NCBI RefSeq assembly: GCF_018771565.1
Contig: NZ_CP076326.1
Span: 310,001 to 374,000, forward strand
DNA: 64,000 bases
Direction of reading: 5' to 3'
Source of the DNA: Thermoflexus hugenholtzii
GTDB lineage: Bacteria; Chloroflexota; Anaerolineae; Thermoflexales; Thermoflexaceae
A model generated the notes under the pieces. It saw only the letters and a program-made list of their open reading frames with translations. It searched no databases and was not told where the DNA came from. Shown in pieces: positions 7,199 through 63,688 of this stretch; the stretch's first letter is position 1, and each line of letters opens with the position of its first letter. The translations under genes were made by a program, and so were the position numbers.

Positions 7199-8745
7199 GA
7201 GCGGTGCCGATCTCCTTATGGAATCCGATTTCGGTCGACTCCGGCCGACGGCCGGAGGCTTTCCCGCCGATTGAAATCGGCCTCTCCGGGCGCTGCGCGC
7301 CGGGCGTCGGCCTTCGCCGACGCAGAAGACACCTTCCCGGTCGGCGCAGGCCGACCGTTGGCCGAAGGCCTTCCGAGGTCGAATTCATTCGGCGCACAGG
7401 CCGACCGATGGCCGAAGGCTTTCCCGCCGATTGAAATCGGCCTCTCCGGGCGCTCCGCGCCGGGCGTCGGCCTTCGCCGACGCAGGGAACGCTTTTCGGT
7501 CGGCACAGGTCGACCGGTTGGCTGAAGGCCTTCCGAGGCCGAATTCATTCGGCGCACAGGCCGGCCGACGGCCGGAGGCTTTCCCGCCGATTGAAATCGG
7601 CCTTCTCAGGCGCTTTTGCGCCGGGCGTCGGCCTCCGCCGACGCAAATGAGATCTCCCGGTCGGCGCAGGCCGGCCGATGGCCGGAGGCCTTCCCGCCGA
7701 TTGAAATCGGCCTCTCCGGGCGCTGCGCGCCAAGCGTCGGCCTCCACCGACGCAGAAGATACCTTCCCGGTCGGCGCAGGCCGGCCGATGGCCGGAGGCC
7801 TTCCCGCCGATTGAAATCGGCCTCTCCGGGCGCTGCGCGCCGGGCGTCGGCCTTCGCCGACGCAGAAGACACCTTCCCGGTCGGCGCAGGCCGACCGTTG
7901 GCCGAAGGCCTTCCGAGGTCGAATTCATTCGGCGCACAGGCCGACCGATGGCCGAAGGCTTTCCCGCCGATTGAAATCGGCCTCTCCGGGCGCTCCGCGC
8001 CGGGCGTCGGCCTCCGCCGACGCAGAAGACACCTTCTCGGTCGGCGCAGGCCGACCGTTGGCTGAAGGCCTTCCGAGGCCGAATTCATTCGGCGCACAGG
8101 CCGGCCGTCGGCCGAAGGCTTTCCCGCCGATTGAAATCGGCCTTCTCAGGCGCTTTTGCGCCGGGCGTCGGCCTTCGCCGACGCAGAAGACACCTTCCCG
8201 GTCGGCACAGGCCGACCGATGGCCGAAGGCCTTCCGAGGTCGAATTCATTCGGCGCACAGGCCGACCGATGGCCGAAGGCTTTCCCGCCGATTGAAATCG
8301 GCCTCTCCGGGCGCTGCGCGCCGGGCGTCGGCCTTCGCCGACGCAGAAGACACCTTCCCGGTCGGCGCAGGCCGACCGTTGGCCGAAGGCCTTCCGAGGC
8401 CGAATTCATTCGGCGCACAGGCCGGCCGACGGCCGAAGGCTTTCCCGCCGATTGAAATCGGCCTCTCCGGGCGCTCCGCGCCAAGCGTCGGCCTCCGCCG
8501 ACGCAGAAGACACCTTCTCGGTCGGCGCAGGCCGACCGTTGGCCGAAGGCCTTCAAAGGCCGAATTCATTCGGCGCACAGGCCGGCCGTCGGCCGAAGGC
8601 CTTGGCGCCGATTGAAATCGGCCTCCGCCGACGCAAAAGGTGCTTTTCCAGGTCGGCGTAGGCCGACCACCGGCCAAAGGCCCCTGGAGGCCGAATTCAT
8701 TCGGCGCACAGGCCGACCGATGGCCGAAGGCCCTCCAGGTCGAAT
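7199..8745. repeat. Composite hairpin repeat array with 160/110-bp period
   Basis: About 1.5 kb of tandem composite repeats. The marker GATTGAAATCGG occurs ten times, at 7269, 7429, 7589, 7699, 7809, 7969, 8129, 8290, 8450 and 8610, giving spacings of 160, 160, 110, 110, 160, 160, 161, 160 and 160. Each long unit contains several palindromes: GCCGATTgaAATCGGC, GCGTCGGCcttcGCCGACGC, GGTCGGCgcagGCCGACC and CGAATtcATTCG. The 110-bp form lacks the module with GAATTCATTC. Every frame is nearly free of stops, which creates long spurious ORFs. A second array in the opposite orientation lies at 24251-24836. Confidence 0.9.
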
Positions 8746-10464
8746 TCATTCGACGCCCATCCGGCGCATGGCGCGGGCCTTCAGGGCGGCCCGCCGCCGG
8801 CGGTAGGTCGCCTCGTCCACCTCCCCCGCCGCGTAGGCCTCGTCCAGTCGGGCGAGCTCCTCGATGGGATCCACCTGTCGGCCCCACCTGAACCATACCA
8901 TCCCGGCCGCCAGCCCTGCGCCGAGGATCAGCAGGACCGGGACCAGCCAGCCGGGAGCCGCCGAGCGGGGCCGCAGGGCAAGGGTGATCGCCTGCCCCGG
9001 ATCCGGAGGCCGGATCTCATAGAGACGATACACCGTTGATCCCAGGGTGCGCAGTCCCAGATCCCGGATCCCGGGGCCGGTCGCTTCCATCGCGTCGCCT
9101 GCGATCAGGAGGTTCCACTGGGCGACCGGATACAGGGAGCGCAGGGTCAGCGTCCGCGCCCGGGCCAGGGGGAGCTCATACCCGAACGCCGCCTGATAGC
9201 CCATCCCGGGCGGGATGGCCGCGGTGTCGATCAAGCGTTCTCCTTCCTGTCGGTAACGGGCGCCCAGCTCGCCCTCGGCGATCTGAAGGTTGGACGCGCC
9301 CGGAGGAAGGAAGAAGATCATCCCGGGGTTCCCGGCGCCTCCATAGGCGGCCGATCCCCGGTTTGAGTAGATCCAGATCTCGGTCACCAGCAGGCGATCC
9401 GCCAGCGGCTGTAGGATCCAGTGGGCCTGATCGATGTGGATCCCTCCGGGGTCCGCTGTCCGGTCGAAGACCATCAGCGTCACTGTGAGCGCATGCCCGG
9501 CGGTCAGGGTGAGCGGATGGGCCGCCGGGTAAGCGATCTCCTGCCACTCCGCCATCGGGAGGTAATCGGCCTCCGCATACACCGGCACCTCAGGGAAGCG
9601 GAAGCTCCCATCGGCCGCCGTGCGGGTCGTCTGCGAGAAGATCGGGGAGGACCCGATCAGGGCGTAGAGGGTGACGGTGACGCCGGCCGCGGGCGCCTCG
9701 GTCGCTCCGTGGAGGACCTGGCCGCTCACCTCGGCGCTCCCGGTCGGGCGGGGTGGATCCCGAACCTCTCGATCCGCGACGGTGAAGGCCAGATCCGGGA
9801 GATAAGCGACGAGGGCCTGCCGGATCTCCGGGGCGAGCTCGGGCAGCCCGGCGTGGGCGGGGACCCGTTCCGGCCGCAGCGCTTCGATCCATGCGGCGGG
9901 GGCTGCCCGGAGCAGCCGCTCCGGATCCGCGAGGGAAGCCGCCCCCTCGCGTCCATCCGCGCCGTGGCATGCCGCGCACGCCTCCCGGTAGCGCTGTGGG
10001 GCGCTGGCCCGGGCTTCGGGCGGCACGGCCAGAGACCATGCGTAGAAAACGACGGCCCAGCGCTCCGCCTCGCTGAGGGCGTTCGCCCAGGGCGGCATGC
10101 CCCGCTCCGGTCGCCCCTCACTGACCACTCGGAACCAGTCCCACAGGGAAGCGGTGCGGGCCGCGAAGTCCTGCGTCAGGTCCAGGCGGGCGTCCGGGAA
10201 GCGGGCGCGGAGGGCGGTCGCCTGAGGGCCGTCGCCGCGCCCCAGCGCGCCGTGGCACGCGGCGCAGCGCTCCCGGAAGATCGTCTGGCCGGTCTTGAGG
10301 GAGAGGGAGGCCGGGGGAAGCGCCGGCGTGGGGGTGGGCATCGGCTGGGTCCGGAAGGGAACATCGCCGGCGGGCGGAGGGGCGGCCAGGGTCAGGGAGC
10401 AGCCGGTGAGGAGGATCCCGGCGAGCAGAAGCGGGAGGAGGGTGTGGGGAAGGCGTGGGCTCAT
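8746..10464 (-). CDS. Diheme c-type cytochrome lipoprotein with carboxypeptidase-regulatory-like domain
   Basis: This 572-residue protein has a lipobox (GILLTGC, Cys22) and two CxxCH heme sites: CAACH at 67-71 and CAACH at 163-167, with Met123 in RGMPPW as a likely axial ligand. Residues about 245-300 (VSGQVLHGATEAPAAGVTVT onward) look like a carboxypeptidase-regulatory beta-sandwich, followed by a larger beta-rich region, one membrane helix (VPVLLILGAGLAAGMVWF) and a short SHOCT-like helical tail. It is probably an electron-transfer protein on the outer membrane face, and a substrate of the surrounding Ccm machinery. The stop codon lies in the first hairpin of the repeat array. Confidence 0.85.
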   Translation of the reverse strand: MSPRLPHTLLPLLLAGILLTGCSLTLAAPPPAGDVPFRTQPMPTPTPALPPASLSLKTGQTIFRERCAACHGALGRGDGPQATALRARFPDARLDLTQDFAARTASLWDWFRVVSEGRPERGMPPWANALSEAERWAVVFYAWSLAVPPEARASAPQRYREACAACHGADGREGAASLADPERLLRAAPAAWIEALRPERVPAHAGLPELAPEIRQALVAYLPDLAFTVADREVRDPPRPTGSAEVSGQVLHGATEAPAAGVTVTLYALIGSSPIFSQTTRTAADGSFRFPEVPVYAEADYLPMAEWQEIAYPAAHPLTLTAGHALTVTLMVFDRTADPGGIHIDQAHWILQPLADRLLVTEIWIYSNRGSAAYGGAGNPGMIFFLPPGASNLQIAEGELGARYRQEGERLIDTAAIPPGMGYQAAFGYELPLARARTLTLRSLYPVAQWNLLIAGDAMEATGPGIRDLGLRTLGSTVYRLYEIRPPDPGQAITLALRPRSAAPGWLVPVLLILGAGLAAGMVWFRWGRQVDPIEELARLDEAYAAGEVDEATYRRRRAALKARAMRRMGVE

Positions 10465-10811
10465 CGCGGCTTCCTCCGGAGCTGGGCTCGGCGAGCCCGG
10501 ACCGCCGCCTCGATCCGGGCCTCAAGATCCGGGATCTCGCCTTCTCCTTGCAAGGCCTGTCCCACCGCAACGCCCTCCTGCAGGTAACGCTGCCGCAGGG
10601 CCTGATAATCCTCCTCCGGGATCTTCCCCATCCGCCAATCCGTCTCCAGATCCCACAGGGCCCTCAGGATCCGCTCATACTGCGCCCGGAGGGCCTCCCG
10701 ATCTTGCGGCGGATGGAGCGGTTCTTTCCCCCGGAGCGGGCTCAGGACGTAGAGCAGGGTGAGCAGGGTGATCCCAAAGCCGATCAGCAGGGTCACGAGG
10801 GTCTCTCCCAT
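10461..10811 (-). CDS. CcmI-like small membrane protein
   Basis: 116 residues: an N-terminal helix (TLLIGFGITLLTLLYVLSPL) followed by a long helical region with the motif ALWDLETDWRMGKIPEEDYQ, which resembles the start of CcmI/CycH where LxxLExDxxxGKIxxxDY is typical. CcmI presents apocytochrome c to the CcmFH ligase. Here there is no TPR part, so the assignment is partial. It overlaps the cytochrome gene by 4 bases and follows ccmG by 9 bases, fully inside the ccm operon. Confidence 0.65.
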   Translation of the reverse strand: MGETLVTLLIGFGITLLTLLYVLSPLRGKEPLHPPQDREALRAQYERILRALWDLETDWRMGKIPEEDYQALRQRYLQEGVAVGQALQGEGEIPDLEARIEAAVRARRAQLRRKPR

Positions 10812-10820
10812 CCCGCGCTC

Positions 10821-11360
10821 CTATTTGACCAGCGGATCGAGAACGGCCTCCAGCTCCCCGGGCCGGATCGGCGCCGCCTTATAGAAAACCACCCGGCCCT
10901 CCGGGTCCACCACGAAGGTCTCGGGGACGCCGGTGATGCGATACAGACGGGAGATCCGCGTGCCCAAATCGGGGCCGTTGGGGTAGGTGATCTCGAACCG
11001 CCGCAGGTAATCCAGGGCAGCGGAGGGGACGTCCAGGTAATCCACGCCCACGAAGATCACGCCGCGCTCCCGGTATTTCCGCCACAGGGCTTCGAGCAAC
11101 GGAGCTTCCTCCTCGCATGGCTTGCACCAGGAGGCCCAGAAGTTGATCACCACGGGACGTCCGCGCCATTCTCGCAGCCGGAACTCCCGGATCCCCAGCC
11201 CGCCGTCGTAGCCCTCATAAAGCGAGAGGGTGAAATCCGGCGCCGGCCCGGCGGTCGGCGCGGTCCGCCCTCGTTCGATGAAGGCCCAGCCGAGCAGGGC
11301 GAGGAAGATCAGGGCGAGGGCGAGGGCCGCTCCCCAACCCCATCGTCCCATCCGGGCCAT
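10821..11360 (-). CDS. ccmG: Thiol-disulfide oxidoreductase CcmG/DsbE
   Basis: A 179-residue membrane-anchored thioredoxin-like protein. Residues 8-28 form the anchor (WGWGAALALALIFLALLGWA) and the redox motif is INFWASWCKPCEEEAP with Cys79 and Cys82. The cis-Pro site is TGVPETFVVD and the acidic insertion typical of CcmG (GVDYLD) is present. It reduces the CxxCH thiols of apocytochromes before heme ligation. It is 9 bases from ccmH and is the second such oxidoreductase of the cluster, the other being the TlpA lipoprotein at 3411-3956. Confidence 0.9.
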   Translation of the reverse strand: MARMGRWGWGAALALALIFLALLGWAFIERGRTAPTAGPAPDFTLSLYEGYDGGLGIREFRLREWRGRPVVINFWASWCKPCEEEAPLLEALWRKYRERGVIFVGVDYLDVPSAALDYLRRFEITYPNGPDLGTRISRLYRITGVPETFVVDPEGRVVFYKAAPIRPGELEAVLDPLVK

Positions 11361-11369
11361 GCGGTCCTC

Positions 11370-11876
11370 CTACCAGTTCTCCCGCACCCACCGATCCAGG
11401 GCGCGGGCGGCTTCATCGGAGCCGGCCTCCGGGGGCACCTCCGGCGCGGGCGCCGGGCGGCGCCAGCGGGCGAGGCGGGAGGCCAGCCACAGCCCGGCGG
11501 CGGGCAGCCCGAGGGCCGGGATCAGCCACACTCCCAGACCGATCCCCCGGGGGGGCGGGACGGCCAGCACGCGCATCCCATAGCGGGAGACGAAGAAATC
11601 CACGATCTCCGTCTCGCTCCGGCCGGCCGCGAGCATGGAGCGGATCTCCTCCTTCCACTGGATGCACGTGGGCGTGTCGCAGACGTCCAGCGGCACGTTC
11701 TCGCAAACCGGGCAATACAGCTGTCGGGCCACCCGGTTGACCTCGTCGTCGGGCACCGGGGGGACCGGGGTCTGGGCCCCGGCGGGCCGGGCTACCGCCA
11801 GGGCCCAAACCAGGAAGATAGCGCCCAGCGCAAAGCCGAGAGGGCGGGGTCCTTGAAGGTATGCGGACTTCCGCAT
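11370..11876 (-). CDS. ccmH: Cytochrome c maturation protein CcmH
   Basis: 168 residues with a signal helix, the CcmH redox motif QLYCPVCENVPL (Cys55, Cys58), helices EEIRSMLAAGRSETEIVDFF and VSRYGMRVLA, and a C-terminal anchor helix. Two extra cysteines follow the motif (Cys66 and Cys71 in LDVCDTPTC); canonical CcmH does not have these, so extra disulfide or metal chemistry is possible. CcmH works with CcmF in the cytochrome c heme ligase. It lies 9 bases downstream of ccmF. Confidence 0.92.
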   Translation of the reverse strand: MRKSAYLQGPRPLGFALGAIFLVWALAVARPAGAQTPVPPVPDDEVNRVARQLYCPVCENVPLDVCDTPTCIQWKEEIRSMLAAGRSETEIVDFFVSRYGMRVLAVPPPRGIGLGVWLIPALGLPAAGLWLASRLARWRRPAPAPEVPPEAGSDEAARALDRWVRENW

Positions 11877-54450: not shown

Positions 54451-54640
54451 TCGCTGGCGAACCTCCTGGGGAATCTCGCGAAACTCATAAAAGGCCTCGC
54501 CGTCCGACACAGCGAGGGGCTTCCACCTCTTTGGATCTTTCCCCCGAGCCGATTATACTTCAGCCATCCTCAAGGTTTCGCGGGAAAGGCATGGCTCTCC
54601 TTTGATCCTGAGTTCCACCTTGCTCGGAGGAGGGAGACCG

Positions 54641-55159
54641 ATGACAACGTGGAGTGCAGGACCGCGTGGGTTGTTCTTTGAGGACCTGGAGGTCGGGTGG
54701 AAAGTCCGCACGCCCGGCCGCACGGTCACCGAGGCGGACATCGTGGAGTTCGCCGGTCTCTCCGGGGATTACACGCCGCTGCACACCGACGCGGAATACG
54801 CCCGCGGCACCATGTTTGGGGAACGGATCGCCCACGGGCTGCTGGGGCTGGCCATCGCCTCCGGCCTGGCGACCCGCCTCGGCTTCCTGGAGGAGACGGT
54901 GGAGGCCTTCACCGGCCTGGAGTGGAAGTTCCGCGCTCCCATCCGCATCGGCGACACCATCTACGCCGAGATCGAGGTGGCCCAGAAACGCCCCACGCCC
55001 GACGGCCGCGCGGGCTTCGTGGTCTTCAACGTCCAGGTCCGCAACCAGCGGGGCGAGGTGGTTCAGCGGGGCCAGTGGACCCTTCTGGTGCGCGCCCGGG
55101 GCGCCGGGGCGCCTCAGGCCTCTCCGGCGGCTTCCTCGGAGCGTCCTTCGGAAGGATGA
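54641..55159 (+). CDS. MaoC-family hydratase/dehydratase-like protein
   Basis: 172 residues with the hotdog fold of MaoC: LFFEDLEVGWKVRTPGRTVT, the active-site DIVEFAGLSGDYTPLHTDAE (Asp/His pair) and RIAHGLLGLAIASGLATRLG. It hydrates enoyl-CoA or a related thioester. The start at 54641 is preceded by GGAGGAGGGAGACCG. It stands alone between the divergent SIS operon and the second kor operon. Confidence 0.88.
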   Translation: MTTWSAGPRGLFFEDLEVGWKVRTPGRTVTEADIVEFAGLSGDYTPLHTDAEYARGTMFGERIAHGLLGLAIASGLATRLGFLEETVEAFTGLEWKFRAPIRIGDTIYAEIEVAQKRPTPDGRAGFVVFNVQVRNQRGEVVQRGQWTLLVRARGAGAPQASPAASSERPSEG

Positions 55160-55253
55160 AGCGAGGCGCCGGACCGCCGGATCCCCTATTTGGGGGAGCG
55201 TCTCACCCGTTTGGGGGAAACAAACGCCTCAGCGGCCGCATTCTGTTACAAAT

Positions 55254-55282
55254 TTTACAAGCAGGGCCTTGAAGGATATACT
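55254..55282 (+). promoter_or_regulatory. Promoter of the second kor operon
   Basis: TTTACA (55254-55259) and TATACT (55277-55282) with 17 bases between, in an AT-rich patch that also contains TTGTTACAAATTTTACAAGC. The ATG follows at 55349. Confidence 0.65.
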
Positions 55283-55348
55283 TAGGAAAAGACATCGCCG
55301 GCCTGGAAGGCTGGCGTTCCGCCCATCTGATCGGGGGAGGCGTGTGCC

Positions 55349-57235
55349 ATGCCCAAACGGTTTGTCTCCTGGATGATCGGGGGGCCTCAGGGCAGCGGGA
55401 TCAACGTGGCGGCGGAGACCCTGGCCAAGGCCTTCAGCCGAGGAGGCCTTCACGTTTTCGCCAACATCGAATACCACTCCAACATCATGGGCAAACATAG
55501 CTACTATCGGGTCCGCGTCTCGGAGGAGCCCGTCCACGCCCCGGTGGATGAGGTCCACCTGCTGGCGGCCCTCGATGAAGAGACCCTCTTCGGCGATCAT
55601 CACCACAACCCCGAGTTCCCCACCCACCACGGCCATGTCCACGAGGTGGTCCCGGGCGGGGGGATCATTTACGACGCGGACCTGGGGGACATCCGGGAGC
55701 GGCTGGGGCGGGATGACCTGCGTCTGTATCCGGTGCCGTATTTCGAGATGATCCGCCGGGCGCTGGAGCCCTTCGGCAAGGCAGCGGAATACCGGCAGTA
55801 TGACATCATGCGGAACACGGTGGCCCTGGGGGCGACCCTGGCCGTCCTGGATTACGATTTCGATCTGGTCGCGGAGGTCATCCGCGAGCAGTTCAAGGGG
55901 CGCCGGGCCCGGCTGGCGGATCTCAACATCCAGGCCCTGCGGGTCACGTATGACTACGTGCATGAGCACTTCGGGAACGACTTCCCCTGGAAGGTGCGCC
56001 GGCGGGAGCGGCGGCCGGATCAGATCCTGATCCGCGGGGTGCAGGCGGTGGCCCTGGGCAAGCTCCAGGCGGGGCTGGGGGTGCAGACCTACTATCCCAT
56101 CAGCCCGGCCACCGACGAGAGCACGTATCTGGAGGCGGTCCAGAGCCGCTACAACGTGGTGGTGATCCAGACGGAGGACGAGATCTCGGCGATCAACATG
56201 GCGGTCGGGGCGGCCCACGCGGGCGCCCGGGCCTCCACCTCCACCGCCGGGCCCGGGTTCGCCCTGATGCCGGAAGGCATCGGGTTCGCCGCCATCACCG
56301 AGGCGCCGGGCCTGGTGGTGTTCCTCTACCAGCGCGGCGGCCCCAGCACCGGGCTGCCCACGCGCACGGAGCAGGCGGACCTGGGGTTCGCCCTGCACCC
56401 GGCCCACGGGGAGTTCCCTCACATCGTCATCGCCCCGGGGGACGTGGTGGAGGCCTTCTACGACAGCTTCGAGGCCTTCAACTGGGCGGACCGCTACCAG
56501 ATGCCGGTGATCGTGCTGGTGGACAAATACCTCGCCAGCAGCTACGTCACCGTCCCCCGCTTTAACACCCGGAACCTGGTCATCGACCGCGGGGTCCGCT
56601 ATCGGCCCGATGGCCAGCGGGACGGCTACCTGCGCCACGCGGTGACCGAGAGCGGGATCTCCCCATGGGTGGTCCCGGGGACGGAGGGGGTGGTGTTCTG
56701 GACGACCAGCGATGAACACAACCCGAAGGGGCACATCTCCGAGGGGGTGCTCCACCGGGTGGAGCAGATGGACAAGCGCATGCGCAAGCTGGAGCTGGCG
56801 GCCCGGGAGATCCCCGACAGCAAGAAGTTCACCCTGCACGGGCCGGAGGACGCCCAGGTCACGCTGGTGGGGTGGGGGACGACCAAGGGGGCGATCCTGG
56901 ACGCCCTGGAGGAGCTGTCGGCCTTCAACGGGCTGACCTTCAACTTCCTTCAGATCCGGATGATGCGGCCCTTCCCGGCGGAGCCGGTGGGAGCCATCCT
57001 GCGGCGGGCCCGTCGGGTGATCCTCATCGAGAACAATTACTCCGGTCAGCTGGGGAACCTGATCCGGGAGATGACCGGCTTCCGGATCCCCCATCGGGTC
57101 CTGAAGTATGACGGCCGCCCCTTCACGGTGAACGAGATCATCGAGGGGGTGCGCCGGGCGCTGCAGGACAACGAGGAGCGGATCGTGATGATCTCCAGCG
57201 AAGCCCGGGAGGTGATCCCATGGCCTACGCGGTGA
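55349..57235 (+). CDS. korA: 2-oxoacid:ferredoxin oxidoreductase, fused gamma-alpha subunit
   Basis: 628 residues. Residues 1-190 are the gamma domain (SWMIGGPQGSGINVAAETLA, YHSNIMGKHSYYRVRVS). Residues 215-628 are the alpha subunit, with YYPISPATDEST (Tyr249 to Ser258) and ASTSTAGPGFALMPEGIGFA, GGPSTGLPTRTEQADL and a C-terminal transketolase-like domain (RRVILIENNYSGQLGNLIRE). This gamma-alpha fusion is the two-subunit type common in archaea and many aerobic bacteria. The substrate (2-oxoglutarate or pyruvate) is unresolved. It overlaps korB by 16 bases. Confidence 0.93.
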   Translation: MPKRFVSWMIGGPQGSGINVAAETLAKAFSRGGLHVFANIEYHSNIMGKHSYYRVRVSEEPVHAPVDEVHLLAALDEETLFGDHHHNPEFPTHHGHVHEVVPGGGIIYDADLGDIRERLGRDDLRLYPVPYFEMIRRALEPFGKAAEYRQYDIMRNTVALGATLAVLDYDFDLVAEVIREQFKGRRARLADLNIQALRVTYDYVHEHFGNDFPWKVRRRERRPDQILIRGVQAVALGKLQAGLGVQTYYPISPATDESTYLEAVQSRYNVVVIQTEDEISAINMAVGAAHAGARASTSTAGPGFALMPEGIGFAAITEAPGLVVFLYQRGGPSTGLPTRTEQADLGFALHPAHGEFPHIVIAPGDVVEAFYDSFEAFNWADRYQMPVIVLVDKYLASSYVTVPRFNTRNLVIDRGVRYRPDGQRDGYLRHAVTESGISPWVVPGTEGVVFWTTSDEHNPKGHISEGVLHRVEQMDKRMRKLELAAREIPDSKKFTLHGPEDAQVTLVGWGTTKGAILDALEELSAFNGLTFNFLQIRMMRPFPAEPVGAILRRARRVILIENNYSGQLGNLIREMTGFRIPHRVLKYDGRPFTVNEIIEGVRRALQDNEERIVMISSEAREVIPWPTR

Positions 57236-58128
57236 AGGACTACAAGACCGAGGTCTGGGTGGACTGGTGCCCCGGGTGCGGGGACTTCGGGATCCTGAAC
57301 GCCATCCACCAGGCCCTGGCGGCCCTGCAGCTGCCCCCGCATCGGGTGGCGGTCTTCTCCGGGATCGGCTGCTCGGGCAAGACGCCGCACTACATCGGGA
57401 CCTATGGGGTGCACACGCTCCACGGGCGGGTGCTGCCGGTGGCCACCGGCTTCAAGCTGGCCAACCCGGAGATGACGGTGATCGCCGTGGGGGGCGACGG
57501 CGACGGCTATGGGATCGGGGCCGGGTATTTCCTGGCCGCCGGGCGGCGCAACGTGGACCTGACTTACATTGTCTACAACAACGGGGTTTACGGGTTGACC
57601 AAGGGCCAGGCTTCTCCGACCTTGCCCAAGGGCGTGCAGACCAAGTCCCTGCCTGAGCCCAACCTGATGGAGGCCCTCAACCCCATCGCCGTGGCCCTGG
57701 GGGCGGGTTACACCTTCATCGCCCGCGGCTACGCCTACGATGTGCGGCATCTGCGGGACCTGATCGTGGCCGCCATCCAGCACCGGGGCACCGCCCTCAT
57801 CGACGTCCTCCAGCCCTGCCCGACCTACAACAACATCTACACGCGGGAGTATTACAACGCCCGCGTCTACAAACTGGAGGAAACGGGCTACGACCCGGTG
57901 GTGCATAATCCGGCGGATGAGAAGGAGATCGTGGAGAAGAAGGCTCAGGCGCTGTTGAAGGCCTATGAGAACGGGGATCGGATCCCCATCGGGATCTTTT
58001 ATCGGGTGGAGCGGCCGACCCTGGAGGACGAGCTGGCCACCCGTCTGCCCCACTGGGGGAAGGCCCTGGCGGACCTGGAGCCGATCTACCGGCGGGATCT
58101 CACCCCGCTGCTGGACGAGCTGAGCTGA
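57220..58128 (+). CDS. korB: 2-oxoacid:ferredoxin oxidoreductase, beta subunit (two-subunit type)
   Basis: 302 residues. Motifs WVDWCPGCGDFGILNAIHQA, VFSGIGCSGKTPHYIGTYGV, HTLHGRVLPVATGFKLANPE, GGDGDGYGIGAGYFLAAGRR and NNGVYGLTKGQASPT (TPP site). Cysteines in WCPGCGDF, GCSGK and QPCPTYN are the 4Fe-4S ligands. It forms the active enzyme with the upstream fusion protein. Only this gene lies between the 3' end of korA and the 80-bp element. Confidence 0.94.
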   Translation: MAYAVKDYKTEVWVDWCPGCGDFGILNAIHQALAALQLPPHRVAVFSGIGCSGKTPHYIGTYGVHTLHGRVLPVATGFKLANPEMTVIAVGGDGDGYGIGAGYFLAAGRRNVDLTYIVYNNGVYGLTKGQASPTLPKGVQTKSLPEPNLMEALNPIAVALGAGYTFIARGYAYDVRHLRDLIVAAIQHRGTALIDVLQPCPTYNNIYTREYYNARVYKLEETGYDPVVHNPADEKEIVEKKAQALLKAYENGDRIPIGIFYRVERPTLEDELATRLPHWGKALADLEPIYRRDLTPLLDELS

Positions 58129-58137
58129 GGCGCAAAG

Positions 58138-58217
58138 GGGTGTGTCCCGATTTTGTCGGGCCTGGCCGCTTCGTAGGACAACTGCGAGCAGTTGTCCTAC
58201 GATTTTGGGACACACCC
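58138..58217. mobile_element. 80-bp MITE-like element, copy 1
   Basis: Non-autonomous element with ends GGGTGTGTCCC (58138-58148) and GGGACACACCC (58207-58217). Inside is a perfect 15-base stem TCGTAGGACAACTGC/GCAGTTGTCCTACGA with a 2-base centre. Flanking direct repeats GCGCAAAGGGG (58130-58140) and GCGCAAAAGGGG (58218-58229) look like a target-site duplication. Copy 2 at 63460-63539 differs by only about four bases. Confidence 0.8.
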
Positions 58218-58275
58218 GCGCAAAAGGGGGCGGGGCGTCCGAAGACGCCCCGCCCGCGTTTTCCTCCGGCTCAGA

Positions 58276-59724
58276 TCAGGCCTCCCGAATCGGCTTCACG
58301 CCCCCTCGCCGTCCCAGACCATATCCGATCCGGAAAACATCGGGGATGTTCACCCGCCCGTCTTCCATGCGGAGGAAGATCCCCATCGCTTCCAGGTCCT
58401 TCCGAAGCCCTTCTTCTCCTTCTTCGATGCTCGGGGGAAGCATCTTCTTCTGTTTTAGGGCTTCCACGACGTTTTGCTCCCGCCAGCGCCTCTTGATCTC
58501 TTGAAAGTCGCAGGGCACCACCAGGCCGCGAAGGGGGCGCATCAGATCCTCAAGCCAGGGGTAGTCTTCCCGCAGCTCATCCACCCGGATCTGGGAGGCT
58601 CGCTGAACCCCCCGTTTGATGCTTTCGTAATGTAAGGCGAACCGGTGATCGGGGTAGCGTTTTTCTGTGTCCTCGGCGGCAGCGCGCAGGGCGATCAGGA
58701 ACGAGCGAGGACTGGTCCGCCCGTGGGCGTCGGCGAGGTGGCCGGGCAGCCAGGTGTAAGGGAAACCCCGCTTTGGGTCGCGTCCCATCCACGGGCCAGC
58801 GATTTGGTGGAAAAGGCTTCGGTGGGATTCCTCCTCCTCCCGCATCTTTCGGGGCCACTGATAGATGATCTGGCCGTTCACTCGAATCAGGTCCCATCGG
58901 ATCTTGGCTTTCTGCTCCGCCCACTCCCGGAATTCATCGGCGTTCTCTTCGTTCCCCAGATACTGCCAGAGGAGGCCGTAAAGATCCGGGCGCGTCCAGT
59001 TCAGGGAGACCCTGGAGGCGATCACTTTGGAGGCGTCCGGGAACGTAGCGACTCGGGATTCGTCGAACTGATCCGGGCGCAGGAAACATTTCAGGCGAAT
59101 GCGCTGGGTGGGCCGCAGTTCCAGCGCGATCTGCAGCAGCCCGCGGATCAGGTCATACATTGTTTCTCGATCCTCCGCAGCCTGCTCCATCGCATCAAAC
59201 AGGATCAGGGCCCACGCGCCCTTTCGCTGCAATTCCCGGTCCTTCTCTTCAAGATGCCGGGCGATCTCTTCCGGATGCTCCTCGACCCAGTCGATTCGCG
59301 CTTGCCAGCCCCGCATGGGATCGAGTCTGTCCGACAGCAGGTTCCAGACTGCCACCGTCTTCCAGAGCATGCGGGGGGATTTCCCGGCCCTTAGCAGCGA
59401 GCGGATCGTGTCCTTATCTGGATAATTCTCGATCCTCGAAACTTGCCCGAACCCGATGTGCACCTCGGTGCGCTCTTCGATCTGGATGCTCCTGTCGATC
59501 TGGGCGATCATCGTTCGAATGGGGGGCTCCTGGAGCGCGGACCACCAGAAGCTCTTCCCGGACCCGCGGATCCCGATCACAACCATGGCATCCGGACGAA
59601 GCGCCTTGATATGCGATGGGGGGAAGTAAACGTGGCGTGGCTCCATTCGCCCCCCATAGGCGCTGGGCTCTTCGGGGAGCGCCCGAAGGATCAGCGCGCG
59701 CAGGTCATGCGCCGAGACCTTCAT
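58276..59724 (-). CDS. P-loop ATPase of unknown family, third gene of a putative HEPN/KGGLGR/ATPase system
   Basis: 482 residues. Walker A VVIGIRGSGKSFWW (residues 49-62), Walker B WALILFDAMEQA with Asp177, then a helical, basic C-terminal half with RPDQFDESRVATFPDASKVI and a winged-helix-like tail. It may be a STAND or conflict-system ATPase. It overlaps the KGGLGR gene by 4 bases (ATGA), so the two are translationally coupled. No nuclease or transmembrane motif is evident. Composition looks less GC-biased by eye than neighbours, hinting at transfer. Confidence 0.8.
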   Translation of the reverse strand: MKVSAHDLRALILRALPEEPSAYGGRMEPRHVYFPPSHIKALRPDAMVVIGIRGSGKSFWWSALQEPPIRTMIAQIDRSIQIEERTEVHIGFGQVSRIENYPDKDTIRSLLRAGKSPRMLWKTVAVWNLLSDRLDPMRGWQARIDWVEEHPEEIARHLEEKDRELQRKGAWALILFDAMEQAAEDRETMYDLIRGLLQIALELRPTQRIRLKCFLRPDQFDESRVATFPDASKVIASRVSLNWTRPDLYGLLWQYLGNEENADEFREWAEQKAKIRWDLIRVNGQIIYQWPRKMREEEESHRSLFHQIAGPWMGRDPKRGFPYTWLPGHLADAHGRTSPRSFLIALRAAAEDTEKRYPDHRFALHYESIKRGVQRASQIRVDELREDYPWLEDLMRPLRGLVVPCDFQEIKRRWREQNVVEALKQKKMLPPSIEEGEEGLRKDLEAMGIFLRMEDGRVNIPDVFRIGYGLGRRGGVKPIREA

Positions 59725-61013
59725 AAGCCTGCCTCCGGGAGCAATTGCCGCTCAAACCGTTGCAGGAACTCGCTGTAGGCGCTTTGGACAGGCCCGCTTT
59801 CCAGAGAGCGCAAGTCCGGCCAGGCCAGCAGGCCGCGCTCCCAATAGATCGGCAGGGGGGTGTGGGGGGCATCCTCTTCCATCAGATCGAAGGAGAACCA
59901 CTCCCCGTCCGGCTCCCCGGGAGGCACCTCGTCGTAGAGCCATTCTCGAAAGAGATCCCACGCGTGCTGTCGAAACCGCCGCAGATATTCTTCCTGGGCG
60001 GTGGGGGGGACCAGGGCGGCCGCCAGGAAGAGGCGCTCTCGAACCTGTCGAATCGCCTGATTTTGAGCCCAATGCTGGAAGAGGATCCGATATCCCGACC
60101 ATGTGGGCTCCGAATCGACGGCGAAGAGCAGAACCTGCGCCTGCAGGCCGACGATCAGCGCCGCCGCGATGTCGTGAAGGCCGCTGCGGCTGTCCATGAC
60201 CACTAAGTCCGGGCTCGCATGGGCCTCCAGGCTCCGGACCAGACGCCGAACCCGATCCACCCATTTCTCGGGAGAACCCCCAACTTCCCGGGGAGGTTTG
60301 TCCAGATACGCGCGGCCCAGCTGGGCGAGATGCTCCCGGCATCGCCTCCCGTAGGCGGGCACCACCATGACCTCTCCGGTGAAATCCATGCTCCACGCGG
60401 GGCGGCCGATCATGTCGGGCACAAGGACCTCGGCCTGGTCGACGAGATCCTCCACAAGCCATTCCACAAGCCCGAAGTCCGGATGCTCCTCCGGGCTTAA
60501 CATCGAGGATAGGGTAGGGGATTCCAGATCGAAATCGAGCACCAGGACGCGCTGTCCCTTCCGGGCCAGATGGGCGGCCAGGACGGCGGCCGTTGTGCTG
60601 CGTCCCAGCCCGCCCTTCAGGGCGAAGAGCACGAATCGGGGCGGACCGGCGAGCTCGGATTCGGCGATGGTCACCCATCGTCGCCCGCTGATCTCCCGAT
60701 CCAGAAAGTAGATCGTCACGCCCTCCTCTTCCCAGATCACAGCTTCCGATCGCAGTTCCTCCCGATCCTCCGGCTCCAGGTAGAGGATGGCCCGCTCGGG
60801 CGGATAAGCGTGTGCCCCCAGGGTGGAATGCAGGCGCTCCACCAGCCGGCGGATCGGCTCCGGCGGTTCGGCGGCAGGCTCCGGAAGAAGCACGGAAACC
60901 CGGCCGATCAGATCCCGGAGGATCCATACCTCTAAGCCCACAGGCAGTTCGGCTTCTCGAATCGCTTTTCGCACGAGATCCCGGGTCTCCCCGAAAGTGA
61001 CCACCCTGTTCAT
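59721..61013 (-). CDS. KGGLGR-type MinD/ParA-like ATPase
   Basis: 430 residues. After about 125 residues of a unique N-terminal domain (LGAHAYPPERAILYLEPEDR), the ATPase has a variant Walker A, FVLFALKGGLGRSTTAAV (KGGLGRST at 133-140), where ParA proteins have KGGVGKTT. VLVLDFDLESPT is the next motif and PDLVVMDSRSGLHDIAAALI resembles the Walker B/DxxSG switch. The Lys-to-Arg change at GR marks the KGGVGR-variant group often found in defence islands. It overlaps both partners by 4 bases. No chromosome-partitioning gene is near. Confidence 0.85.
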   Translation of the reverse strand: MNRVVTFGETRDLVRKAIREAELPVGLEVWILRDLIGRVSVLLPEPAAEPPEPIRRLVERLHSTLGAHAYPPERAILYLEPEDREELRSEAVIWEEEGVTIYFLDREISGRRWVTIAESELAGPPRFVLFALKGGLGRSTTAAVLAAHLARKGQRVLVLDFDLESPTLSSMLSPEEHPDFGLVEWLVEDLVDQAEVLVPDMIGRPAWSMDFTGEVMVVPAYGRRCREHLAQLGRAYLDKPPREVGGSPEKWVDRVRRLVRSLEAHASPDLVVMDSRSGLHDIAAALIVGLQAQVLLFAVDSEPTWSGYRILFQHWAQNQAIRQVRERLFLAAALVPPTAQEEYLRRFRQHAWDLFREWLYDEVPPGEPDGEWFSFDLMEEDAPHTPLPIYWERGLLAWPDLRSLESGPVQSAYSEFLQRFERQLLPEAGL

Positions 61014-61411
61014 ATCATTCCTCCCCGTCGGGCCTGCAGGACGAGGTTGCGGATCTCCTCTGCTCCTTTGCGGTGTTCCTCCACGAATTGGTCCGTAAAG
61101 TGCTGGCGGGAGGCGTATCGCTGATCGACCGACCAGTTATGAAAAGGGTTCCGATTGGGCAATGTGCCCAGCTGGGCGATCCTTCCTCCTTGGGCAAGCC
61201 GCGCCGCCTGATCCCAAAGACGATCCACGTGGACGCGCTGGTGACGGCCCGGCGGTCTGCCGGTTATCAAAGGCCAAAGCGCTTTCAGGCCGCATTCGGC
61301 AGCCAGGCCATAGAGGTGATCCGCGTTGGCCCATCGCCGATTCCCGAAAAGGAGCTCGGCGTCTTCCCAGTGCCTCTCATGGGCGTCCAGGAAATCCTCC
61401 GGCCAGTTCAT
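61010..61411 (-). CDS. HEPN-like helical protein, first gene of the putative system
   Basis: 133 residues, mainly helical. Motif-like features are ANADHLYGLAAECGLKALWPL (HEPN-type helix pair) and WSVDQRYASRQHFTDQFVEE, where Arg98 and His104 form an Rx5H pattern compatible with the Rx4-6H RNase site of HEPN domains. The family assignment is tentative. The start at 61411 is behind GGGGAGAAAAGAGGTG; a TTG-initiated form from 61495 is open too. Its stop overlaps the KGGLGR start (ATGA). Confidence 0.6.
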   Translation of the reverse strand: MNWPEDFLDAHERHWEDAELLFGNRRWANADHLYGLAAECGLKALWPLITGRPPGRHQRVHVDRLWDQAARLAQGGRIAQLGTLPNRNPFHNWSVDQRYASRQHFTDQFVEEHRKGAEEIRNLVLQARRGGMI

Positions 61412-61491
61412 CACCTCTTTTCTCCCCGGCGGGTTCTCGCGAGCGGAACGCGCCTGATCGGCCTCATGGTGGTCGGGAGCCGGATGACCCG

Positions 61492-63345
61492 TCAACCGCG
61501 CCCGGGAGGCACTCCGAGGAGGGCCGGCTCTTGTTTCCGAAACCGCTCCCGGTAGGCGGGGAGGGTGATCATCGGCGGGCGCTCGGCGTCCCCGATCTCC
61601 TCCACCTCCAGGTAATAGCGGCCCGGCTCATGGCGGATCAGCTTCATGGAGCGGTTGACTTCCTCCAGCAGCTGGATCTTGTGCCGGTCCTCCAGGCGCC
61701 GGATCACCACCTGGATGATGGCGAAGGCCATCTTGGAGAGGGCCTCCAGGTCCTGGTTCCGGTGGATCCGCTCCTGCAGATCCACCTGGGCGATGGACCA
61801 CAGGCCGAACCGCTCCAGGATGTCGATGAGCAGCCCGATCTCCACCCCGTAGCCAGTGAAGAAGGGGACCTGCTCCAAGATCTCCCGGCGGCCGGCGTAT
61901 TCCCCCGACAGCGGCTGGATCAGCCCGGAGAGCTCCGGGAAGAAGAGGTTGATCAGGGGCCGGGCCACCAGCTCCGTCACCCGCCCGCCGCCCCCCGCTT
62001 GCAGCCGCTCCCCCACCCGGATGGGACGCCGGTAGAACCCCTTCACCAGGCCGATGCGCGGGGAGCGCAGCAACGGGCCGATCAGCCCATAAATGAAGCG
62101 GGGATGGTAGTTGGTGATGTCCGTATCGGTCCAGACGATGAGATCCCCCCGCAGGACGTAGAGGCTCTTCCACAGCGCCTCCCCTTTGCCCCGATAAGAG
62201 CCCACCTCCGGGAGGATCTCCGGGTGGATGTATACCGGGACGCCCTTCTCCCGCGCGATCTCCCGGGTGCGATCGGTGGAGGCGCTGTCGATCACCACGA
62301 TCTCATCCAGGAGCGGGTAGCGCTCCATCAGGGCCTCGCGGGCGATGTCCAGGATGGGGCCGATGGTGGCCTCCTCGTTGAGGGTGGGGAGCCCCAGGCT
62401 GATGGTCACCCCCTGAGCCCGCTTGAGGGCCACCAGTTCCTCCAGGTTGGAGAACTCCTCGGCGTCGAAGGTGTTCTCCGCAAACCACTTGTCCACCAGC
62501 ACGGAGATGGGAAGCTGGGCCGGCGCGCCCCGCGGTCGAGGCTGGCCGGGGAGGAAGGCCCGGGCGGCCCGGGCCAGGATCAGCGGCTTCTCCGTCCCCT
62601 GGCTCAGGGCACGGGCCAGCGGCCCCAGACCCTGAGCCTCCTCCCGGCCCGGTCGGGTGGGGGCACCCAGGACCGCCCCGTCGTGGTGGCGCAGCTCCTC
62701 CAGCACGGCCTGGGCGATCTCGCCGTGCAGGACCATCTGGCGGGTGATGCGGGGGAACTGCCGGGCCAGCGGTCGGAAGGCGGCCGCCACCCGTCGGGCC
62801 TCCGAGGCCGCGTGGAGCAAGGTCACCTGCCCATCCCAGGCCTCCGCCAGCGCTAAGGCGACCTCCACCGCCAGCTGGGTATACGGCCCGCCCCGCACCG
62901 GCAGCAGGATCCGCCGCCAGGGCTCCCGGATCGGACCGCGGACCAGGAGGAGATCGCAGAGGGATTCCTGGAGCACCCGGGCCAGGGGCGCTCCCAGCAC
63001 CGGACCGTCCGGATCGCCGTTCCAGGGCAGGAGCATCAGCGAGACCCGGTTCGCCTGGAGGAAGTGAAGGACCTCCTCCCACGGGCAATGGGAAACGCGG
63101 ATGCGAGGACGGACCCGGAGGGGCAGCTCCGGGAACTCCGCGGCCAGCGCCATCAGCCGCTGGCGCAGCGTCCGGGCCTCCGCCGTCCCATGGCTGAGGG
63201 AGCGCTCCGGCGGGAGGGCGACCAGCCCCAGCAGGGTGATCTCCCCCCGCTCCGCCGGACACAGCGCCGAGGCCAGCGGGAGCAGCCCCCGCGCGGCCTC
63301 GACATCTTCCACCGGGATCAGGATCTGATCGAAGGGCATCGCCAC
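61492..63345 (-). CDS. gpgS: Universal-stress-protein and glucosyl-3-phosphoglycerate synthase fusion
   Basis: 617 residues. Residues 1-140 and 145-265 are two USP-like domains (DQILIPVEDVEAARGLLPL; RILLPVRGGPYTQLAVEVAL). From about 290 is a GT81-type glucosyltransferase: SLGLPTLNEEATIGPILDIA, VVIDSASTDRTREIAREKGV, YRGKGEALWKSLYVLRGDLI, WTDTDITNYHPRFIYGLIGP. GpgS transfers glucose from an NDP-donor to 3-phosphoglycerate, giving a precursor of glucosylglycerate. A phosphatase is not next to it. Fusion with USP domains suggests stress-linked control. It is upstream of the HEPN triad and 80 bases separate them. Confidence 0.85.
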   Translation of the reverse strand: MAMPFDQILIPVEDVEAARGLLPLASALCPAERGEITLLGLVALPPERSLSHGTAEARTLRQRLMALAAEFPELPLRVRPRIRVSHCPWEEVLHFLQANRVSLMLLPWNGDPDGPVLGAPLARVLQESLCDLLLVRGPIREPWRRILLPVRGGPYTQLAVEVALALAEAWDGQVTLLHAASEARRVAAAFRPLARQFPRITRQMVLHGEIAQAVLEELRHHDGAVLGAPTRPGREEAQGLGPLARALSQGTEKPLILARAARAFLPGQPRPRGAPAQLPISVLVDKWFAENTFDAEEFSNLEELVALKRAQGVTISLGLPTLNEEATIGPILDIAREALMERYPLLDEIVVIDSASTDRTREIAREKGVPVYIHPEILPEVGSYRGKGEALWKSLYVLRGDLIVWTDTDITNYHPRFIYGLIGPLLRSPRIGLVKGFYRRPIRVGERLQAGGGGRVTELVARPLINLFFPELSGLIQPLSGEYAGRREILEQVPFFTGYGVEIGLLIDILERFGLWSIAQVDLQERIHRNQDLEALSKMAFAIIQVVIRRLEDRHKIQLLEEVNRSMKLIRHEPGRYYLEVEEIGDAERPPMITLPAYRERFRKQEPALLGVPPGRG

Positions 63346-63459
63346 CTGACCGTCAGGAGCTGAACGCGAACCCGGGGAGGACGCGAGCGATGGCCAGTGG
63401 GTCCTCCTTTATTCTATTGCAGGAACGGGCAGGCCGGCGGAGGCGGGCCCGGTCGCTTC

Positions 63460-63539
63460 GGGTGTGTCCCGATTTTGTCGGGCCTGGCCGCCTTGTAGGA
63501 CAACTGCGAGCAGTTGTCCTACGATCTTGGAACACACCC
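63460..63539. mobile_element. 80-bp MITE-like element, copy 2
   Basis: Same element as at 58138, with ends GGGTGTGTCCC (63460-63470) and AACACACCC. The direct repeat GTCGCTTCGGG occurs immediately before (63452-63462) and after (63540-63550), overlapping the ends. It lies in the divergent gap between gpgS and rsgA, where no gene is present (63346-63688); a TATAGT at 63577-63582 is the best -10 candidate for rsgA. Confidence 0.8.
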
Positions 63540-63688
63540 GTCGCTTCGGGCTCCCGGGGGAGGACCGTGGATCGTGTATAGTCAAATAAGGGAAGCGTGC
63601 GGGAAAGCCCGGAGGCCTGCCGGCGCGCCGAGGGGCGCCCGCTGTGGAAGCCCGAAGGAGCCCACATCGTTCGGGAGGGAGTGCGCGG

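Follow-up and report, generated by a model that had tools for sequence, protein, structure and literature searches.

The three-gene operon at 58276..61411 of the window (the whole 64-kb stretch of DNA analysed here) is, on the strength of its profile matches, a copy of PDC-M28, a widespread, catalogued but uncharacterised candidate system. A defence role for PDC-M28 is very likely, given its embedding in defence operons, its mobility and its natural fusions. The reading that we favour, with somewhat better than even confidence, is that of a horizontally moving anti-phage or anti-mobile-DNA module with an abortive-infection-like mode of action, in which the product of gene C would sense, that of gene B would switch, and that of gene A would act. 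The relevant features, in window coordinates, are:

61010..61411, minus strand: gene A, 133-aa protein of predicted HEPN fold, PDC-M28A (PADLOC PDLC04558, E 9.2e-44)
59721..61013, minus strand: gene B, 430-aa SIMIBI (MinD/ParA-like) protein with a KGGxGR variant P-loop, PDC-M28B (PADLOC PDLC04559, E 2.2e-129)
58276..59724, minus strand: gene C, 482-aa P-loop ATPase of predicted STAND/ORC-Cdc6 type, PDC-M28C (PADLOC PDLC04561, E 3.7e-182)
61229..61231, minus strand: His61 of A, His in 85/86, candidate alternative HEPN active-site His
61115..61120, minus strand: Arg98-Tyr99 of A, 85/85
61100..61102, minus strand: His104 of A, from the proposed Rx5H, not conserved
60594..60617, minus strand: variant Walker A of B, KGGLGRST, P-loop Lys replaced by Arg138 in 86/86
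59551..59574, minus strand: Walker A of C, GIRGSGKS, Lys57 in 95/95
59194..59196, minus strand: Walker B Asp177 of C, 95/95
58228..58255, no strand: GC-rich hairpin terminator, 12 pairs, between C and a convergent oxidoreductase gene
58261..61501 (approximate), no strand: cassette missing from the relative genome G269, where the flanks align at 98% and 96%

Genes A, B, and C are complete open reading frames arranged head to tail, with an ATGA stop/start overlap at both joints, as an earlier note on this DNA had described; the motifs quoted there are also present (RYASRQH at A 98-104, KGGLGRST at B 133-140, and GIRGSGKS at C 51-58). The same note recognised no known named system with this trio, but in PADLOC-DB 2.0.0 the three proteins match PDC-M28A, B, and C, nearly full length and as the only families (E up to 1), and the trio has the adjacency within one operon that defines PDC-M28. 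Profile matches of 1e-43 to 1e-182, together with a gene order kept across many phyla, mark the trio as genes rather than chance reading frames. PDC stands for putative defence candidate, a category that derives from a guilt-by-embedding screen and is mostly unvalidated (PMC12988326); the literature searched held no mention of PDC-M28 and no experiment on it. A scan of the operon with a consensus promoter gave no match, the consensus being uninformative for this organism.

When one genome per species was scanned with a profile built from aligned C proteins, 79 loci were recovered, and relatives of C occur in 20 plasmid records from many genera. The 79 loci belong to Pseudomonadota, Chloroflexota, Nitrospirota, Acidobacteriota, Planctomycetota, Bacteroidota, Spirochaetota, Actinomycetota, and others. 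Among 104 C-bearing loci, which include a few duplicates or short contigs, all three genes are present in 89, and in 85 their order and orientation agree, which bears out the earlier view of the trio as a conserved unit. Within Chloroflexota, a match to C (E up to 1e-10) is found in 10 of 400 genomes, and the full trio in few of them. No trio copy close to the Enterobacter version was found in E. coli genomes, and phage records yielded no homologue of C. In Pseudomonas lopnurensis AL-54, two complete, divergent trios lie about 1.5 kb apart and face each other (L056:3529-6766 and 8271-11433). Four Streptomyces plasmid loci (L034, L035, L038, and L039, near 8700-10470) encode C without a recognisable A or B; because the genes upstream of C in these loci encode differing proteins, C may have other partners. 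Genome G166 holds a second, degraded trio (L018:8243-11588) with a TAG stop inside C, which suggests recurrent loss.

Within the genus, the trio is present in two of nine congeneric genomes. Segments 54474-58140 and 61501-63418 of the window align with the close relative G269 at 98% and 96%, respectively; in G269 only about 75 bp and no trio lie between them, and a hairpin matching the window's terminator is retained at this empty site. In G402, which is another species, the end of C is present at 98% identity, and the contig stops inside C. From the empty site in G269 and the operon end in G402, the operon behaves within the genus as a cassette that is cleanly present or absent, for which the scattered distribution favours gain rather than loss. 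A housekeeping role is ruled out by the empty site together with the patchy presence across the phylum. Integrases lie beside the trio in Enterobacter and Paraburkholderia, in the former on conjugative IncF plasmids.

The 80-bp mobile elements that the earlier note cited in favour of an island origin do not serve as island borders. An 81-bp element, at 58138-58218 and again at 63460-63540 of the window, belongs to a MITE-like family with an inner palindrome (TCGTAGGACAACTGC..GCAGTTGTCCTACGA) and terminal repeats (GGGTGTGTCCC/GGGACACACCC). Full-length copies of the element at 58138-58218 number about 40 and are dispersed in the 3.3-Mb genome (40 of 92 candidates scored), and G402 has no copy at 58138, near C, although the operon end is present on its contig; the element therefore inserted independently of the operon. 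Comparison with G402 suggests a short target-site duplication of roughly 9-11 bp around GCGCAAAGGGG.

The trio does recur beside known defence genes, a neighbourhood that the earlier note had proposed to look for: at least 20 of the 104 C-bearing loci are embedded in BREX-2, in a PglZ locus, or in operons with a DUF1156 methylase and a PLD helicase. Nine BREX-2 loci contain the trio inside the operon (L025, L030, and L032 are annotated), with PglX before and PglY after it in six; in the Streptomyces BREX-2 locus PglW precedes the trio and PglX follows, and the two other contigs end behind the trio. A PLD-type helicase follows the trio in nine further loci, eight of which have a DUF1156 methylase in front, and PglZ lies directly after the trio in two loci. 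In a tree of C, eight of the nine BREX-2 copies form one clade, with the Streptomyces copy elsewhere, and the DUF1156 copies are scattered among copies from other contexts. Because most embedded loci fall in a few clades, the tree indicates several independent embedding events, far fewer than twenty. PADLOC-matched neighbour families number 121 near the trio (<2.2 kb) vs. 15 far from it (>5.5 kb), a tally that is a pointer only, as it is biased by redundant families and by the larger number of residues in the near set. Taken with the PADLOC assignment, the patchy presence and the empty site, insertion into these operons upholds the probable defence role proposed earlier. A TIR-domain gene lies downstream of the trio, in convergent orientation, on a conjugative plasmid of Enterobacter asburiae (L028:10772-11575), and is not annotated at the equivalent place on the related plasmid L027. 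In the window itself, no other defence gene was identified next to the trio.

Natural fusions add to this picture. In two Chloroflexota loci (L019 and L022), one open reading frame of approximately 895 aa matches PDC-M28B and then PDC-M28C, behind a gene for a HEPN-like protein. In two Magnetococcales loci (L110:8950-12960 and L118:7878-12164), C is joined in one protein to a metallophosphoesterase of the calcineurin-like type and to a NACHT domain, with A and B upstream of the fusion in L110. These fusions argue for a physical link between B and C and for a connection with known immune architectures, and that of C with metallophosphoesterase and NACHT is possibly a new one.

The model of C (AlphaFold2, pLDDT 95.4) has an AAA+ core of the STAND/ORC type that contains both Walker motifs, A and B. 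The best Foldseek matches are BrxC (9zll, 7.7e-6) and archaeal Cdc6/ORC (1.1e-5), and further fold matches (VIA) are archaeal STAND-like ATPases (Z 13.9 for 2qen, and 13.6), CED-4 (Z 13.0), the NRC4 resistosome (Z 12.9), and Cdc6 (Z 12.4); C also resembles the DNA-binding ATPases ORC, TnsC, and MuB (VIA). Since these matches are distant (rmsd about 5 Å, above 4.5 Å), C is placed at the class level only, as a predicted member of the STAND/ORC-Cdc6 class, with no close relative claimed. By sequence, C has no credible solved relative (one chance-level match, 4d0g, E 0.88), and a profile-level homology to PglY is unsupported (hhalign probability 1.2%).

B belongs to the KGGVGR-motif variant ATPases (NCBIfam NF047398, AAA_KGGVGR), with a score of 164.5 bits against a cut-off of 90. 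Its P-loop reads KGG[VLA]GR[ST] in all 86 homologues, and because the Lys-to-Arg change is seen in every one of them, it defines the B family. Residues D160, D162, D274, R276, and G278 are also invariant, which suggests that the nucleotide site is kept. From what the P-loop lysine does in general, B probably binds nucleotide with poor hydrolysis or none.

The predicted structure of A (AlphaFold2 with 68 homologues; pLDDT 94.5, pTM 0.89) agrees with the HEPN fold that had been proposed for the first gene. Every one of its top fold matches (Z 10.6-12.6) is a HEPN protein; they are led among solved structures by the sacsin HEPN domain (3o10; VIA, Z 12.6, rmsd 2.9, 119 aligned) and include TT1696 (Z 12.5), AF0298 (2hsb, Z 12.2), and TM0613 (Z 11.7; all VIA); by sequence, A has no credible solved relative (one chance-level match, 4oky, E 0.96). 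The HEPN domain of sacsin binds nucleotides. The proposal of Arg98 and His104 as an Rx5H catalytic pair does not survive comparison across the family: 6 of 86 homologues have His at residue 104, and the spacing Rx4-6H, counted from R98, is seen in 8 of 85. The window copy thus has its canonical-type Rx5H by accident, and this Rx5H is ruled out as the catalytic motif of A. E39, C40, and K43 are invariant in the 86 aligned proteins, H61 is found in 85 of them, W93 in 84, and both R98 and Y99 in each of the 85 that extend to that region. In the model, His61 lies after helix 27-50 and just before helix 62-72. HEPN proteins of the AbiV/AF0298 type have lost the motif His and retain the Arg; a further His is conserved between their helices 2 and 3, and was described in 2013 as possibly forming an alternative active site (PMC3710099). 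A displays this same pattern. RNA cleavage by A, if any, would need such an alternative His61/Arg98 site. More generally, the occurrence of a HEPN fold and an Rx5H in one sequence need not mean a canonical HEPN ribonuclease.

In the scheme that we favour, C would act as the sensor and as an oligomerising platform, for which DNA or a replication intermediate as trigger would fit the ORC/BrxC-like fold. B, as a MinD/ParA-type protein in which the P-loop Lys is always Arg, would be a nucleotide-bound switch that couples C to A. A would be the effector, probably cleaving RNA by means of the alternative His61/Arg98-Tyr99 site, and the growth of the infected cell would be stopped. The analysis documents the genes and their order, the predicted folds of A and C, the conserved residues, the embedding, the fusions, and the empty site; we infer the sensing, the coupling, the RNA cleavage, and the trigger. 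For A in particular, the role of an effector that cuts RNA at this site is reasonably probable, though less certain than the defence role. A more elaborate version, tentative and in our estimate rather doubtful, is a ternary sensor-switch-effector complex with B as a non-hydrolysing switch, which would serve in BREX and BREX-related operons as a fail-safe when the host system is inhibited.

Because the canonical HEPN motif is missing from the family, A could be non-catalytic and serve to bind RNA, nucleotide, or a partner, which would leave C or B as the real effector; C, for example, might assemble on phage DNA and block its replication in the manner of ORC or TnsC. This alternative is unlikely: it accords with the loss of Rx4-6H in about 90% of A proteins and with sacsin HEPN as the best fold match, and, for C, with the likeness to DNA-binding ORC, TnsC, and MuB and with the four Streptomyces loci that carry C alone, but His61, Arg98, Glu39, and Lys43 show little or no variation across 86 divergent proteins, beyond the needs of a pure scaffold, and A is kept in most loci. 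Less likely still is a toxin–antitoxin or addiction module that maintains plasmids and islands, with the ParA-like B as the antitoxin of A. Dyads of a HEPN protein (MAE_18760) and ParA/Soj were proposed as toxin–antitoxin systems in 2013 (PMC3710099), and the 20 plasmid records would suit such a role; against it stand the conserved third, STAND-type gene, the embedding of the trio in BREX and BREX-related operons, and the many chromosomal copies, that of the window included. That the trio is an accessory specific to BREX and BREX-related systems, a backup upon failure of the methylase or phosphatase, is highly improbable. In its favour, about 20 of 104 loci are embedded in such operons, and backup effectors in BREX operons have been described in general terms (PMC12839542); against it, most loci, including the window, have no BREX gene next to the trio, which must therefore be able to act alone.

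With the sensor–switch–effector scheme, PDC-M28, previously a name in a candidate list, acquires three proposed roles that are testable, and the residues singled out for mutation are His61 and Arg98 of A, Arg138 of B, and Lys57 of C. The natural fusions hint at joint action of B and C, and BREX-2 operons contain natural versions of the trio.

Compared with known systems, PDC-M28 resembles the HEPN (MAE_18760)–ParA/Soj dyads (Anantharaman et al., 2013) in having a HEPN gene beside a gene for a ParA/MinD-type ATPase. It differs from them in that no STAND ATPase is described for the dyads, and in that the MAE_18760 HEPNs are listed with Rx4-6H kept (PMC3710099), whereas the A family lacks a conserved Rx4-6H. 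With AbiV/AF0298 (HEPN-T) proteins, A has in common the HEPN fold, the lost motif His, the kept Arg, and the second His, but it differs from AbiV in its place in a conserved trio, in a fold match of only Z 7.4 to the AbiV structure 9bj7 (VIA), and in a score against Pfam AbiV (PF18728) of 17.1 bits, below the curated cut-off of 27.1; 7 of 68 A homologues match that family at E 0.01 or better. C is tied to BrxC/PglY of BREX by its top Foldseek matches, which include BrxC N-terminal structures, and the trio adjoins PglY in BREX-2; in contrast to those proteins, C is without the long C-terminal part and has no profile–profile relation to PglY. C is also similar to the Sll1717-family P-loop ATPases (NF047389) at E 6.8e-18, yet with 65.0 bits it falls below the curated cut-off of 75. 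With PDC-M28 as catalogued in PADLOC-DB, the window trio is the same in its genes and in the order A-B-C, with no architectural difference. The architecture is thus already catalogued, but PADLOC gives PDC-M28 a name only, to which the present analysis adds the evidence from folds, residues, and fusions, and what is new here is the corrected active-site prediction for A, the class assignments, the fusions, and the embedding census.
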